The translations under genes were made by a program, and so were the position numbers. The notes under the pieces were generated by a model, which was not told the origin of the DNA, did no database searches, and saw only the letters and a list, made by a program, of their open reading frames with translations. A stretch of DNA of 64,000 nucleotides, from assembly GCF_032598905.1 (NCBI RefSeq), contig NZ_CP122458.1, positions 1,488,001-1,552,000 of the forward strand, read 5' to 3'. Position 1 is the stretch's first letter. Every line of letters starts with the position of its first letter. This stretch comes from Streptomyces sp. 11x1 (lineage in GTDB: Bacteria > Actinomycetota > Actinomycetes > Streptomycetales > Streptomycetaceae). This document shows, piece after piece, positions 37,783 through 42,739 of the stretch.

Positions 37783-38238
37783 CTAGCGGAGCGCCTCCGT
37801 CGGGCTGCGCAGTTCCTCCGCCGCGTCGGCCACCCGCCGGATCAGCTCGAAGAACACGCCCTGCTCCTCCGCCGACAACGGGGCCAGGAACACCTGGTTC
37901 ATCCGCGCCGTCCGCACCGTGAGCCGACGATGGATCCGCAGCCCGTCGTCCGTGAGCCGCAGCAGGAACCGTCGCCCGTCCTGCGGATCACGCACCTTGT
38001 CGAGGAGCCCCCGGCGCCCGAGGCGGCTGATGACCTCGGACATCGTGGACCGGTCGAGCCCCACCCGCTCCCCCACCGTGCGCTGGTCGAGCCCCGGTTC
38101 GGCGACGAGGGTGTTGAGGACCGCGAACTGCGGCGAGGTGATCTCCTCGGAGACCATCACGTTCCACAGCAGATAGTGGGCCTGCTGCAGCCGTCGGGCC
38201 AGGTGCCCGGGGTGGGTGGAGAGGTCCACCGCGGCCAT
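37783..38238 (-). CDS. pcaV: MarR-family regulator of protocatechuate catabolism
   Basis: Winged-helix repressor of 151 residues that in S. coelicolor binds protocatechuate and releases the pca operon. The core SPQFAVLNTLVAEPGLDQRT, VGERVGLDRSTMSEVISRLG and the wing DPQDGRRFLLRLTDDG are typical. It is divergent from the pca genes, as in S. coelicolor. ATG at 38238 after GAGGAG. Here the divergent operon has lost its first three genes, so the regulator may now control a shortened transcription unit. Confidence 0.9.
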   Translation of the reverse strand: MAAVDLSTHPGHLARRLQQAHYLLWNVMVSEEITSPQFAVLNTLVAEPGLDQRTVGERVGLDRSTMSEVISRLGRRGLLDKVRDPQDGRRFLLRLTDDGLRIHRRLTVRTARMNQVFLAPLSAEEQGVFFELIRRVADAAEELRSPTEALR

Positions 38239-38269
38239 GTGCACTCCTCGACTCGGGCTCGGCAATTCA

Positions 38270-38281
38270 TCCGTGCACTGA
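38270..38281. promoter_or_regulatory. palindrome candidate for PcaV operator
   Basis: TCCGTGCACTGA is a 12-bp dyad around GTGCAC with one mismatched pair, 32 bp upstream of the pcaV start, in the region shared with the former pcaI promoter. It is a plausible MarR-type site. Another palindrome, GTGAAG-gaaa-CTTCAC, lies at 38378-38393. Confidence 0.45.
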
Positions 38282-38455
38282 ACGATACCCGCCACGCCTC
38301 GACGTCTGTCCATATGGCGTACGGATCCGACCTGGCCTTTTTCGCAGCTCTTGACGAGGGAGCCGACGAGTGGCAGCGTGAAGGAAACTTCACCCAAATG
38401 CTCAGTGCCCTGATTAACCGGTCACCGGGTGCGCGGACGAGATGGGGCCTCACGG

Positions 38456-38776
38456 ATGGACAAGGTGGTCGCCACAGCCCTGGAGGCGGTGGCCGATGTG
38501 CCGGACGGCGCGACGCCCCCGGCGTCGTCTCGAACAACCGTGGGGCCATTCGAGCATCAGGGCGAACGACGGCCACGACGGCCACGACGGCGTCTCGCCG
38601 GCCTCGCCGCCCAAGGCGGTCCGCGAGTTCGTCGGGGGCGCGACCGGCCGGAACCATCGCGCATGCGACCGGCCGGAACCGTCGCGCATCAGCCGACCCA
38701 CAAGGGCTCGGGCGTCTGTGCCGCCACGCTGTGCATCGGCGTGGGGCAAGGGCTCGCCCGCGTTCTGCGGCGCTGA
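38456..38776 (+). pseudogene. pcaI-pcaJ-pcaF deletion remnant (pcaI 5' end joined to pcaF 3' end)
   Basis: Starting at ATG 38456 the frame reads MDKVVATALEAVADVPDGAT, the N-terminus of 3-oxoadipate CoA-transferase subunit A (PcaI). After about 20 codons the match ends and low-complexity Arg/Pro-rich sequence follows. The same frame ends GVCAATLCIGVGQGLARVLR plus a last R and stop at 38776, the characteristic C-terminus of beta-ketoadipyl-CoA thiolase (PcaF; CIGVGQG). The order pcaV-pcaI-J-F-H is that of S. coelicolor, so pcaJ and most of pcaI and pcaF appear deleted and partly replaced by repeats. No function expected. Confidence 0.8.
38640..38689. repeat. 25-bp tandem duplication inside the pca scar
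   Basis: Two adjacent 25-bp units (38640-38664 and 38665-38689, each starting GCGACCGGCCGGAACC) differ at a single base. Shorter GACGGCCAC repeats lie just upstream near 38570-38590. Confidence 0.9.
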
Positions 38777-38814
38777 GCCGTGTCCGCGACTGCCGGTCGT
38801 TCATCACCGGTAAC

Positions 38815-38843
38815 GCAGTTCCCCGCGCCCCTCAGGGGCGCCG
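38815..38843. repeat. Streptomyces intergenic hairpin repeat upstream of pcaH
   Basis: GCAGTTCCCCGCGCCCC followed by TCAGGGGCGC forms the same hairpin as at 4267. It lies between the pcaF remnant and pcaH, where an intact operon would not be expected to carry a terminator-like element. Confidence 0.75.
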
Positions 38844-38895
38844 CACCCATCCCGCCTTTTGACGTGAACGTCAGGAACCCCCAGGGACACCACTC

Positions 38896-39669
38896 ATGAC
38901 CCTCACCCAGCACGACATCGACCAGGAAATCGCCGTCGAACACACGGCCTACGAGAAGCGGGTCGCCGGCGGGGCGCCGGTCGAGCACCATCCGCGCCGC
39001 GACTACACGCCCTACCGGTCCTCGGTGCTGCGGCACCCGAAGCAGCCGCCGATCTCCATCGACGTCACCAAGGACCCGGAGCTGGTGGAGCTGTTCTCCC
39101 CCGCCTTCGGGGAGCGGGACATCACCGAGATCGACAACGATCTGACCCGGCAGCACAGCGGCGAGCCGATCGGTGAGCGGATCACGCTCACTGGCCGCCT
39201 CCTCGACCGCGACGGCCGCCCGCTGCGCGGCCAGCTGGTGGAGATCTGGCAGTCCAACTCGGCGGGCCGCTACGCCCACCAGCGCGAGCAGCACGACGCG
39301 CCGCTGGACCCGAACTTCACCGGCGTGGGCCGCACGCTGACGGACGACGACGGCCGTTACCACTTCACGACGATCCAGCCGGGCCCCTACCCGTGGCGCA
39401 ACCACCTCAACGCCTGGCGGCCGGCCCACATCCACTTCTCGATGTTCGGCACGGCGTTCACCCAACGGCTCGTGACACAGATGTACTTCCCGAGCGACCC
39501 GCTCTTCCCCTACGACCCCATCATCCAGTCGGTCACCGACGACGCCGCCCGGCAGCGGCTGGTCGCGACGTACGACCACAGCCTGTCCGTACCGGAGTTC
39601 TCGATGGGCTACGTCTGGGACATCGTCCTCGACGGCCCGAAGGCCACCTGGATCGAAGAAGGGCGCTGA
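38896..39669 (+). CDS. pcaH: protocatechuate 3,4-dioxygenase beta subunit
   Basis: Fe(III)-carrying subunit that, with PcaG, performs intradiol cleavage of protocatechuate to 3-carboxy-cis,cis-muconate. It has 257 residues. Iron ligands are spaced exactly as in the Pseudomonas enzyme: Y126 (SAGRYAHQ), Y165 (GPYPWRN), H178 and H180 (RPAHIHFS). ATG at 38896. First intact gene after the deletion scar; the next gene, pcaG, starts 6 bp after its stop. Confidence 0.96.
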   Translation: MTLTQHDIDQEIAVEHTAYEKRVAGGAPVEHHPRRDYTPYRSSVLRHPKQPPISIDVTKDPELVELFSPAFGERDITEIDNDLTRQHSGEPIGERITLTGRLLDRDGRPLRGQLVEIWQSNSAGRYAHQREQHDAPLDPNFTGVGRTLTDDDGRYHFTTIQPGPYPWRNHLNAWRPAHIHFSMFGTAFTQRLVTQMYFPSDPLFPYDPIIQSVTDDAARQRLVATYDHSLSVPEFSMGYVWDIVLDGPKATWIEEGR

Positions 39670-39675
39670 CCTGCC

Positions 39676-40281
39676 ATGACGAAGATCGACACCAGTCGTC
39701 CGGAGACCGTCCTCCCGACCCCGTCGCACACGGTCGGGCCCTTCTACGGCCACGCCCTGCCCTTCCCCGGCGGCGACGACATCGCTCCCCTCGGCCACCC
39801 CGACACCATCTCCCTCCAGGGCCACATCCTGGACGGCGAGGGCAACCCGCTGCCGGACGCCTTCCTGGAGCTGTGGGGTCCCGACCCGGACGGCAACGTC
39901 CCCCGCGTCGACGGGTCCATGCGCCGCGACGCCGCGAGCGGTGGCTTCCTGGGCCGCAACGGTGTGGAGTTCACCGGCTGGGGCCGCGTCCAGGCCGACG
40001 CGAGCGGTCACTGGACCGCGCGTACGCTGCGGCCCGGCGCGCGCGGGCGGAACGCGCCCTACCTCAGCGTGTGCGTCTTCGCCCGGGGCCTGCTGGTCCA
40101 CCTGTTCACCCGGATCTACCTGCCGGGCGACGACGCCGCACTGGCCGCGGACCCGCTGCTGTCCCGTGTGGACGAGGCGCGCCGGGGCACGCTGATCGCC
40201 GAGGACCGGGGCAACGGCACCTACCGTTTCGACATCCGCCTTCAGGGCGAAGGCGAAACGGTCTTCCTGGAGTTCCAGTGA
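39676..40281 (+). CDS. pcaG: protocatechuate 3,4-dioxygenase alpha subunit
   Basis: Structural and substrate-binding subunit of the dioxygenase, 201 residues, sharing the intradiol fold but without the full iron ligand set. Typical segments are TPSHTVGPFYGHALPFPGGD, LELWGPDPDGN and LVHLFTRIYLPGD. The following pcaB start overlaps its stop by 4 nt (GTGA). Confidence 0.95.
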   Translation: MTKIDTSRPETVLPTPSHTVGPFYGHALPFPGGDDIAPLGHPDTISLQGHILDGEGNPLPDAFLELWGPDPDGNVPRVDGSMRRDAASGGFLGRNGVEFTGWGRVQADASGHWTARTLRPGARGRNAPYLSVCVFARGLLVHLFTRIYLPGDDAALAADPLLSRVDEARRGTLIAEDRGNGTYRFDIRLQGEGETVFLEFQ

Positions 40282-41609
40282 CTTCTGCTGACGCCGACAC
40301 CGGTCTGCTCTCCCCCGGGTGGGCCGGTTCCCCGGCCGCGGCCGCGACGAGCGACACCGCCCATCTGCGGGCGCTGCTCGACGCCGAGGCCGCGCTGACC
40401 CGCGCCCAGGCCACGCTGGGGCTGGTCCCCGCCGCGGCCGGGCCCGCGGTGACCTCGGCGGCGGACGCCGCGACCCCGGACGTCCGCTCCCTCGCGGAAC
40501 GCGCGCGCGGCGGCGGCAACCCGGTGATCCCACTGGTGGCGGACCTCACCGAGGCGGTCGGCCCCGAGTACGGTCCGTACGTGCACCGGGGTGCCACCAG
40601 CCAGGACATCATGGACACGGCGACGATGCTGGTCGCCGCGCGCACCCTCGACCTGGTCCTGGCCGACCTCGGCCGTACGGAGTCCGCGCTGGCCGCGCTC
40701 GCCGCCGCGCACCGGGACACGGCGATGCCGGGCCGCACCCTCACCCAGCACGCCGTGCCCACCACCTTCGGTCTGAAGGCGGCCGGCTGGCGCTCGCTGC
40801 TCCTGGACGCCCGGGACCGGCTCGCCGTCGTACGGGCGACACTGCCGGCCCAACTCGGGGGCGCGGCAGGTACCTTGGCGGCGTTCACGGTCTTCGGGGC
40901 GGCCGACACCCAGGCCCTGACCGCCGCCTACGCCCGTGAACTCGGCCTCCACGCACCCGAGTTGCCCTGGCACACCCTGCGCACCCCGATCGCGGACCTG
41001 GCCGGAGCTCTGGCGTTCACCGCCGGCGCCCTGGGCAAGCTCGCGGTGGACGTGCTCACCCTGGCCCGTACCGAGATCGCGGAGGTCGCCGAGGGCAGCG
41101 GGGGCGGTTCGTCGGCGATGCCGCACAAGGCGAACCCGGTACGGTCGACGCTCATCGCGGCGGCGGCCCGGCGGGCGCCCCACCTGGCGGCGACGCTGTA
41201 CGGGGCGCTGGCGGCCGAGGACGAGCGGCCGGCCGGGGCGTGGCACGCGGAGTGGGAGCCGTTGCGCGAGCTGCTCCGGCTGGTCGGAGGCGCCGCCCGG
41301 GACGCGGTGGAGCTCACGCAGGGGCTCCGGGTGGACCCCGGCGCGATGCGCCGGCACCTGGACCTCACCCACGGGCTGATCGTCTCGGAGCGGCTGGCCG
41401 CCGCGCTGGCCCCGGTGCTGGGCAGGGCCCGCGCCAAGGAACTGCTGACCCGGACCGCCGAGCGCGTCTACGCGGAGGGGCGCTCGCTGGGTGAACTCCT
41501 CGCCGAGGAGCCGGAGTTGAAGGACCTCGACCTCACGGACCTCACGGATCCCACCCGTTACACCGGCTCCGCCGGATCCCTCACCGACCGTGCACTGGAG
41601 CGACGTTGA
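40278..41609 (+). CDS. pcaB: 3-carboxy-cis,cis-muconate cycloisomerase
   Basis: Converts 3-carboxy-cis,cis-muconate to 4-carboxymuconolactone. It has 443 residues of the fumarase/aspartase superfamily, with the signature GSSAMPHKANPV and the conserved HRGATSQDIMDTATM and RTLTQHAVPTTFGLK regions. GTG start overlapping pcaG; its own stop overlaps the TTG start of pcaL (TTGA), so pcaG-B-L are translationally coupled. The last ~30 residues are Leu/Asp/Thr-rich (ELKDLDLTDLTDPTRYTG). Confidence 0.94.
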   Translation: MTSADADTGLLSPGWAGSPAAAATSDTAHLRALLDAEAALTRAQATLGLVPAAAGPAVTSAADAATPDVRSLAERARGGGNPVIPLVADLTEAVGPEYGPYVHRGATSQDIMDTATMLVAARTLDLVLADLGRTESALAALAAAHRDTAMPGRTLTQHAVPTTFGLKAAGWRSLLLDARDRLAVVRATLPAQLGGAAGTLAAFTVFGAADTQALTAAYARELGLHAPELPWHTLRTPIADLAGALAFTAGALGKLAVDVLTLARTEIAEVAEGSGGGSSAMPHKANPVRSTLIAAAARRAPHLAATLYGALAAEDERPAGAWHAEWEPLRELLRLVGGAARDAVELTQGLRVDPGAMRRHLDLTHGLIVSERLAAALAPVLGRARAKELLTRTAERVYAEGRSLGELLAEEPELKDLDLTDLTDPTRYTGSAGSLTDRALERR

Positions 41610-42739
41610 CCGACAAGCTGCTCGACCACCGTGCGGAAGGCCCGACTTCCGCCCCTCCCCTGCTGCTCGGCCCCTCCCTCGGCACGTCCACCCGGCTCTG
41701 GGACAAGGTGGCGCCCGAGCTGTCGATCACGCACCGGGTGGTCCGCTGGGACCTGCCGGGGCACGGCGACTCCTCCGCCGGGCTGATCGGGCCGGGGGCG
41801 ACGGTGGCCGACCTGGGTGCCCTGGTGCTGGGCCTGGCGGACGCGCTGGGTGTCGAACGGTTCGCGTACGCGGGGGTCTCCCTGGGCGGTGCGGTCGGTC
41901 TGTGGCTGGCGGCGCACCACCCGGAGCGGGTCTCCTCCCTGGCCGTGCTCTGTTCCTCGGCCCACTTCAACGGTGCCAAGCCGTGGCGGGAGCGGGCGGA
42001 GCTGGTGCGCCGGGAGGGGCGGCAGGGGCTGGCCGGGCTCGCGGAGACGGCCGACTCGCGGTGGTTCACGCCCGGGTTCACCGTGCCGGAGCTGGTGGAG
42101 GACCACCGCCGGGCCGATCCGGAGGCCTATGCCGCGTGCTGCGACGCGCTCGCCGCGTTCGACATCCGCGAGGAGCTGGCCGGGATCACCGCGCCCACAC
42201 TCCTCGTCGCCGGCCGACAGGATCCGGCGACGCCGCCCGCGCATCTGCGGGAGATCGCGGACGCGGTGCCCGGGGCGACGCTCACCGAGATCGCGGGGGC
42301 GTCGCATCTCGCCCCGGCGGAGCGGCCGGAGGCCGTACTGGCCGCGCTGCGCGGGCACTTCGACGGGTACGCGCGGCGCGGGATGGAGGTGCGGCGCCAG
42401 GTGCTCGGCGATGCGCACGTGGACCGCGCCCAGTCCCGGCAGACCCCGTTCACGGCCCGGTTCCAGGACTTCATCTCCCGCTACGCGTGGGGCGAGATCT
42501 GGACCGATCCGACGCTGTCGCGCCGCGAACGCAGCATGATCACACTCACCGCGCTGATCGCCCACGGCCACTACGACGAACTGTCCATGCACATCCGCGC
42601 GGCCCGCCGAAACGGCCTCACCCCGGAGGACATCGCCGCCGTCCTCCTCCAGTCGGCGGTCTACTGCGGCGTCCCGGCGGCGAACTCGGCGTTCGCGGCG
42701 GCGCAGCGAGTGTTGGCGGAGGAGGAGGGGCAGGACTGA
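41606..42739 (+). CDS. pcaL: fused 3-oxoadipate enol-lactonase / 4-carboxymuconolactone decarboxylase
   Basis: Bifunctional protein, 377 residues. The N-terminal alpha/beta-hydrolase (PcaD part) has the catalytic triad S92 (GVSLGGA), D206 (GRQDPATP) and H234 (GASHLAP). The C-terminal carboxymuconolactone decarboxylase (PcaC part, from about 255) has FQDFISRYAWGEIWTDPTLS and EDIAAVLLQSAVYCGVPAAN. The fusion is common in actinomycetes. It forms 3-oxoadipate, but the CoA-transferase and thiolase that would use it are missing from this locus. Confidence 0.94.
   Translation: MTDKLLDHRAEGPTSAPPLLLGPSLGTSTRLWDKVAPELSITHRVVRWDLPGHGDSSAGLIGPGATVADLGALVLGLADALGVERFAYAGVSLGGAVGLWLAAHHPERVSSLAVLCSSAHFNGAKPWRERAELVRREGRQGLAGLAETADSRWFTPGFTVPELVEDHRRADPEAYAACCDALAAFDIREELAGITAPTLLVAGRQDPATPPAHLREIADAVPGATLTEIAGASHLAPAERPEAVLAALRGHFDGYARRGMEVRRQVLGDAHVDRAQSRQTPFTARFQDFISRYAWGEIWTDPTLSRRERSMITLTALIAHGHYDELSMHIRAARRNGLTPEDIAAVLLQSAVYCGVPAANSAFAAAQRVLAEEEGQD

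Follow-up and report, generated by a model that had tools for sequence, protein, structure and literature searches.

Loss of pcaIJF from the protocatechuate operon of Streptomyces sp. 11x1 and its relatives goes with a second, LysR-linked pcaF-pcaI-pcaJ operon

Introduction

How can protocatechuate be broken down completely in a Streptomyces whose pca operon has no genes left for the CoA-transferase and the thiolase that consume 3-oxoadipate? The question is raised by the pca locus of Streptomyces sp. 11x1, which lies in the window analysed here, a stretch of 64,000 nucleotides (contig NZ_CP122458.1, positions 1,488,001 to 1,552,000). In S. coelicolor the order of the operon is pcaV-pcaIJFHGBL. 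In the window pcaV and pcaH are separated by a short open frame at 38456-38776. A first-pass annotation, made from the sequence alone, read this frame as the deletion scar of pcaI, pcaJ and pcaF in an operon of the usual Streptomyces order, and it named other copies in the genome as one possible consequence. No report of such a pattern of pcaIJF loss was found in the literature at the level of titles and beginnings of abstracts, nor in the passages of PMC6882365 and PMC5487221 that were consulted.

The scar between pcaV and pcaH

The frame 38456-38776 (plus strand) opens with the N-terminus of PcaI (20 residues, 95% identity to an intact PcaI) and is closed by the C-terminus of PcaF (36 residues, 72% identity), as the annotation had it; matches to the NCBIfam pcaF models span residues 79-115 of the ORF, which has 115 aa, with E values of 0.0023-0.012. 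DNA comparison resolves the scar into colinear shards of pcaI (nt 1-61, 141-170 and 404-472) followed by the 3' end of pcaF, and pcaJ is gone. Measured against genome G272, the closest intact relative by tree path and the reference for the block coordinates, about 2.6 kb has been reduced to 321 bp.

The stretch 38201-38516 corresponds to the promoter and pcaI nt 1-61, the 5' relic of pcaI being 38456-38516 by both DNA and protein comparison. It is followed by an internal relic of nt 141-170 at 38520-38549 (87% over 30 nt, E 1e-4, colinear with G272), possibly by nt 225-243 at 38549-38567, a weak match (E 7.9), and by nt 404-472 at 38572-38640 (88% over 69 nt, E 2e-20). The last relic is out of frame and was also detected in 13 of the 16 relatives compared. 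From 38665 to 38960 the sequence is the 3' end of pcaF running into pcaH (E 4e-60); the pcaF relic proper, recognised by profile match and DNA alignment, covers 38665-38776 and has kept its own stop codon. All these relics lie on the plus strand, as does a tandem duplication of 25 bp that marks the junction of the large deletion (38640-38689, copies 38640-38664 and 38665-38689) and that stood out in a repeat search of 38240-38900 among shorter and weaker pairs. The two ends proposed for the scar are therefore right, but the one clean joint between pcaI and pcaF is not, because there were several deletions, with internal pcaI shards and the tandem duplication.

The 16 relatives comprise ten with an intact operon, and all ten show the same three colinear blocks: pcaV, promoter and pcaI start; a 61-64 bp internal piece of pcaI at about 38572-38635; and the 3' end of pcaF. 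The other six have lost genes themselves, either all three (G013, G026 and G029) or pcaF (G016, G020 and G006). The intact close relatives G272, G252 and G278 align across the gap, and the alignment to intact relatives that had been suggested as a check gives significant matches to both pcaI and pcaF. With colinear remnants of the flanking genes, the middle lost and intact genes at the same place in close relatives, 38456-38776 is confirmed as a deletion pseudogene. An assembly error is unlikely because the contig is 10.54 Mb long and the remnants have diverged; as similar scars are found in other genomes, an artefact of this kind was ruled out. The 32 pcaV-pcaH intervals of full-loss loci (24 of the main sample and 8 from named genomes, see below) were read, and no mobile element was noticed in them. 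The stretch 38777-38851, which comes next to the pcaF relic on its downstream side, has similarity to short sequences at several other places in this genome and in other genomes of the genus and is an intergenic repeat.

The retained part of the locus

The repressor gene pcaV (37783-38238, minus strand; start codon picked by similarity) is intact, with a Pfam MarR match and 87% identity to the PcaV of a relative. Among the 13 protocatechuate-contact residues of PcaV listed in PMC6882365, 11 are conserved and two differ (Y38F and I110T). According to PMC5487221, the pca operon is repressed by PcaV and protocatechuate is the best inducer. A probable promoter of the operon, TTGACG ... CAGCGT, lies at 38351-38379 (plus strand), and the near-palindrome TCAGTGCCCTGA at 38402-38413 (plus strand) is a putative operator of the PcaV type. 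Exact TCAGTGCNCTGA sites number 4 in the whole genome, compared to 2 for a control pattern. These elements are retained where the genes have gone: in the 32 full-loss loci TTGAC is kept in 31 (the exception is G184), a -10-like hexamer in 29, and the operator as TCAGTGCNCTGA in 29 (6 of them by eye), with one mismatch in the other three.

The annotation was also right in calling the upper pathway intact, since each of its four genes, all on the plus strand, exceeds a family cut-off: pcaH (38896-39669, protocatechuate 3,4-dioxygenase beta; TIGR02422, 346.8 bits), pcaG (39676-40281, the alpha subunit; TIGR02423, 165.4 bits), pcaB (40317-41609, 3-carboxymuconate cycloisomerase; TIGR02426, 425 bits) and pcaL (41606-42739, a PcaDC fusion of enol-lactonase and decarboxylase; NF051488, 538 bits). 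It should be noted that pcaB scores higher, 543.3, with the nitrosuccinate lyase model NF052556, yet this is under the cut-off of 650 of that model. The CoA-transferase and the thiolase are missing at the locus as claimed, pcaI and pcaF being present as relics.

Loss of pcaIJF in the genus

We searched 295 genomes of the genus and found PcaH at E<=1e-60 in 184. The interval between pcaV and pcaH was read in 117 of these, the 11x1 genome included and the others mostly the best-ranked by PcaH. At 75 of the 117 loci pcaI, pcaJ and pcaF lie between pcaV and pcaH in the order that the annotation had given, which is also what makes the 11x1 locus a deletion. All three genes are absent from 24 loci (this one and 23 others) and pcaF alone from 17, and one locus, in G110, carries a different CoA-transferase. 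The deleted loci share with the ordinary Streptomyces operon the divergent pcaV, the promoter region, the operator and pcaHGBL.

On a locus tree built from pcaV and part of pcaH, unordered parsimony on the best tree gives 14 changes for full loss against the rest and 15 for loss of pcaF only. The scars vary in what they have kept, from pieces of both pcaI and pcaF in G165, a piece of pcaJ in G213 and a 44-aa PcaI-PcaF fusion in G132 to nothing recognisable of pcaIJF in G164 and G316. At the G154 locus (L173) the pcaI start and first codons are joined in frame to pcaH.

In the loci which have lost only pcaF (e.g., L048, L168, L179 and L182) N- or C-terminal stubs of pcaF often remain. A paaJ-type thiolase is found in 16 of these 17 genomes, and G006 has a 484-bit thiolase. 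A role of PaaJ as explanation for the loss of pcaF is consistent with this count, yet the PaaJ type is also found in 65 of the 75 intact genomes (p=0.68).

In G110 the pcaIJF genes have been swapped in place for a different CoA-transferase pair (L200:2938-4583), the alpha subunit of which matches glutaconate CoA-transferase 1poi (E 8e-33). An IclR-like gene, named by reading only, adjoins pcaV, and a single TIGR02428 gene of the operon type lies on a different contig of this genome. G110 is thus a displacement in place and a second full loss without the distant operon described in the next section.

A second pcaF-pcaI-pcaJ operon

The prediction of other copies was borne out. A complete pcaF-pcaI-pcaJ operon with a divergent LysR gene is located at G000:C1:10512495-10515018 (G000 is the 11x1 genome), approximately 26 kb from the end of the chromosome contig. 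We call this type class B. The identity of its enzymes to their operon-type counterparts in G009 is 45% (PcaI), 52% (PcaJ) and 59% (PcaF). PcaI and PcaJ exceed the cut-offs of TIGR02429 (356.9 vs 128.5 bits) and TIGR02428 (248.4 vs 243.55 bits), families which also cover other 3-oxoacid CoA-transferases. PcaF falls below the cut-off of TIGR02430 (418 vs 597 bits), which is exceeded in only 2 of the 117 genomes, intact operon copies of PcaF falling short as well; the closest to it of four thiolases compared is the operon PcaF.

Among 38 class-B loci read, pcaF is full-length in 36 (none was seen in G116, and it is partial in one G261 copy), a LysR match is present in 34 and it is divergent in 33. 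There are two main subtypes, about 89-97% and about 70-84% identical to the 11x1 copy, with two loci in between, and subtype 2 has another LysR than subtype 1. The class-B tree is discordant with the pca tree; the 11x1 class-B copy is sister to that of G213.

The genome holds two TIGR02428 genes. One belongs to class B and the other to a second pcaIJ pair at 8.806 Mb, which is of the operon type (76-77% identity to the G009 operon) and adjoins a gene of the fumarylacetoacetate-hydrolase family; this neighbour suggests that the pair serves the use of acetoacetate. A paaJ-type thiolase is present at 9.683 Mb in a phenylacetate cluster.

What class B is for is indicated by its relatives on plasmids, for which five of 595 matching plasmid records were opened. 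Gene surroundings of the beta-ketoadipate type were found in four of the five regions. In Mycobacterium adipatum pMYC1 a module of divergent LysR and thiolase-PcaI-PcaJ lies beside pcaL-pcaB-pcaG-pcaH. It has the gene order of the 11x1 operon with 82% (PcaI), 76% (PcaJ) and 57% (LysR) identity, whereas the thiolases are only 39% identical, that of 11x1 being nearer to the Streptomyces operon PcaF; a further difference is that the 11x1 class B is far from pcaHGBL. PcaIJ of the class-B type stands at the end of a pcaHGB-pcaC operon in Mycolicibacterium rufum, within ben-cat genes in Tsukamurella and after maleylacetate reductase in Pseudarthrobacter. The fifth region, in Cnuibacter, counts against this function, as the class-B-like pair is found there among acyl-CoA genes and not among aromatic genes. 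Among the 120 matches listed, the names include '3-oxoadipate CoA-transferase alpha subunit' and, less specifically, '3-oxoacid CoA-transferase subunit A'.

Association of the loss with class B

Class B was called by TIGR02428 score and reading of the locus, for G155 and G020 by score and an adjacent thiolase match, and for the named genomes by score alone; G128 was left out (a 65% relative at 274 bits whose thiolase is of another kind) and G116 was counted despite the pcaF not seen there. By these rules 23 of 24 full-loss genomes have class B, as do 14 of the 75 intact ones and 2 of the 17 that lack pcaF only. Fisher's test for 23/24 against 14/75, which ignores kinship, gives p=6e-12, and p=5e-11 when G110 is added as a full loss (23/25). 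A tree-aware pairs test gave about 5 pairs that agree, 0 that disagree and 5-7 without difference (p 0.03-0.38, median 0.0625). Genome size does not differ between full-loss and intact genomes (p=0.79). Ten of the 24 full-loss genomes have no TIGR02428 copy besides class B.

A second set consisted of named genomes with 80 loci (59 intact, 13 full loss, 5 lacking pcaF only, 2 cut by contig ends and 1 with a broken pcaI). Of the 17 loci that had probes in common with the first sample, 16 were removed and only S. torulosus was kept (one probe shared with G163); 61 usable loci remained and 50 genomes were searched. A class-B score was obtained in 8 of 8 full-loss genomes, 2 of 5 lacking pcaF only and 5-6 of 37 intact ones, one intact match being partial (p about 1e-5, full loss vs intact). 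Two further intact matches, at 273-279 bits, were judged from their scores to be G128-like and not included; if counted they raise the intact figure to 8/37. The eight losers are S. neyagawaensis, S. sp. MA5143a, S. stelliscabiei, S. torulosus, S. antibioticus, S. scabiei 87.22, S. violaceoruber NRRL S-981 and S. sp. HM190. They are not eight independent events because several share nearly one scar. Taken together, the data support that full loss of pcaIJF goes with the LysR-linked class B, the tree-aware test being the weaker one (median p 0.06).

Probable separate regulation of the two halves

Control of class B by PcaV was considered and rejected. With at most one mismatch TCAGTGCNCTGA gave 2 matches in 41 distal loci (38 of them class B), none in the gap between LysR and pcaF. 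In 20 class-B loci this gap is 71 nt long and holds a strongly conserved motif, ATATGCGTACTTCAGAATAT (L036:10026-10096 and relatives), probably the site of the LysR protein. None of the 32 full-loss pca promoters contains this subtype-1 motif, which speaks against their control by the class-B LysR of subtype 1. With neither site in the territory of the other regulator, the pcaHGBL and class-B halves are probably regulated separately.

Class B may also serve hydroxyquinol-type routes. At approximately 0.165 and 1.245 Mb (L343 and L344) the 11x1 chromosome has two similar clusters, each with an FAD monooxygenase, an intradiol dioxygenase and, downstream, a maleylacetate-reductase-like frame, the first and last names coming from frame reading. 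They are a possible second source of 3-oxoadipate, which would also need a sink. No catechol dioxygenase in the genome exceeds the TIGR02438 cut-off (best 146 bits vs 404).

A model for the loss

In xenologous, or non-orthologous, gene displacement a function passes to a gene set that is related to the old one but distinct from it, and the old copy erodes. We propose that the same has probably happened here: a xenologous LysR-pcaF-pcaI-pcaJ set elsewhere on the chromosome, class B, would have made the operon pcaIJF redundant, which then decayed in place. The case differs from the general one in that a three-gene lower pathway would be displaced in trans, and this many times over, with the other genes of the operon and its promoter left in place. 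Protocatechuate would release pcaHGBL from PcaV, and the enzymes would produce 3-oxoadipate. The class-B LysR, answering a pathway product such as 3-oxoadipate, would turn on class-B PcaFIJ, which would yield succinyl-CoA and acetyl-CoA. The pathway would in this way be split between two regulators, with the consumption of 3-oxoadipate passing from PcaV to the LysR protein.

The two versions might even be incompatible when expressed together, either by mixing of CoA-transferase subunits or since the operon copy drains the 3-oxoadipate meant to signal via LysR. A gain of LysR-pcaFIJ would then select for removal of the operon copy with PcaV control of the upper genes kept, and this conflict would have left its mark in the excisions that recur between the PcaV operator and pcaH. 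We regard this extension as speculative and rather improbable.

The order of events could be the reverse, the operon genes being lost first by chance or at a deletion-prone locus and class B gained later as a rescue. The discordant trees, which show that class B moved horizontally at least sometimes, are in favour of this. It is nevertheless rather unlikely, as both sets occur together in 14 intact genomes, including G272, G252 and G278, the three intact relatives closest to 11x1, which fits gain of class B first and loss later. Furthermore, only G029 among the 24 full-loss genomes is without class B, and it has an operon-type pcaIJ pair elsewhere (pcaI 89% identity); a TIGR02428-family CoA-transferase is present in all 117 genomes.

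Somewhat less likely still is that the pcaIJ pair at 8.806 Mb and the thiolase of the phenylacetate cluster take over and that class B is incidental. Both exist in the genome, and the 16 of 17 pcaF-only losers with a paaJ-type thiolase fit, but this type is about equally common in intact genomes. Extra operon-type copies are not enriched in full loss (14/24 vs 34/75 intact, p=0.35) and none is found in 10 of the 24 losers, and the neighbour of the pair points to acetoacetate.

That the fused frame from PcaI start to PcaF stop, of the 107-residue class, encodes a functional small protein, or is kept as a leader that couples translation to pcaH, appears improbable. A recognisable pcaI start is left in 8 of the 32 full-loss loci, and in seven of these the frame runs without interruption as far as the old pcaF stop or a point shortly before pcaH, or enters pcaH itself (G154); against this, no pcaI start was found in the other 24, the pcaF part is in another frame in G201 and S. 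violaceoruber, G165 has an early stop, and long open frames are expected at the G+C content here. Least probable of all is a dead pathway, with pcaHGBL on the way out or 3-oxoadipate released: CoA-transferase and thiolase are absent at the locus, but pcaHGBL is intact, TTGAC is kept in all but one of the losers, and at least one TIGR02428 gene over the cut-off is found elsewhere in 24/24 full-loss and 8/8 named genomes.

Concluding remarks

What began as one scar has become a natural experiment, in which the same three genes have been lost many times from a well-studied operon, and living species show the intermediates: both sets, shredded relics and clean joints. It would appear from this that Streptomyces can swap its lower beta-ketoadipate pathway in trans and bring it under a different regulator. 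An operon without pcaIJF does not mean that the pathway is missing, a warning relevant to the annotation of lignin-derived aromatic breakdown and to metabolic models.
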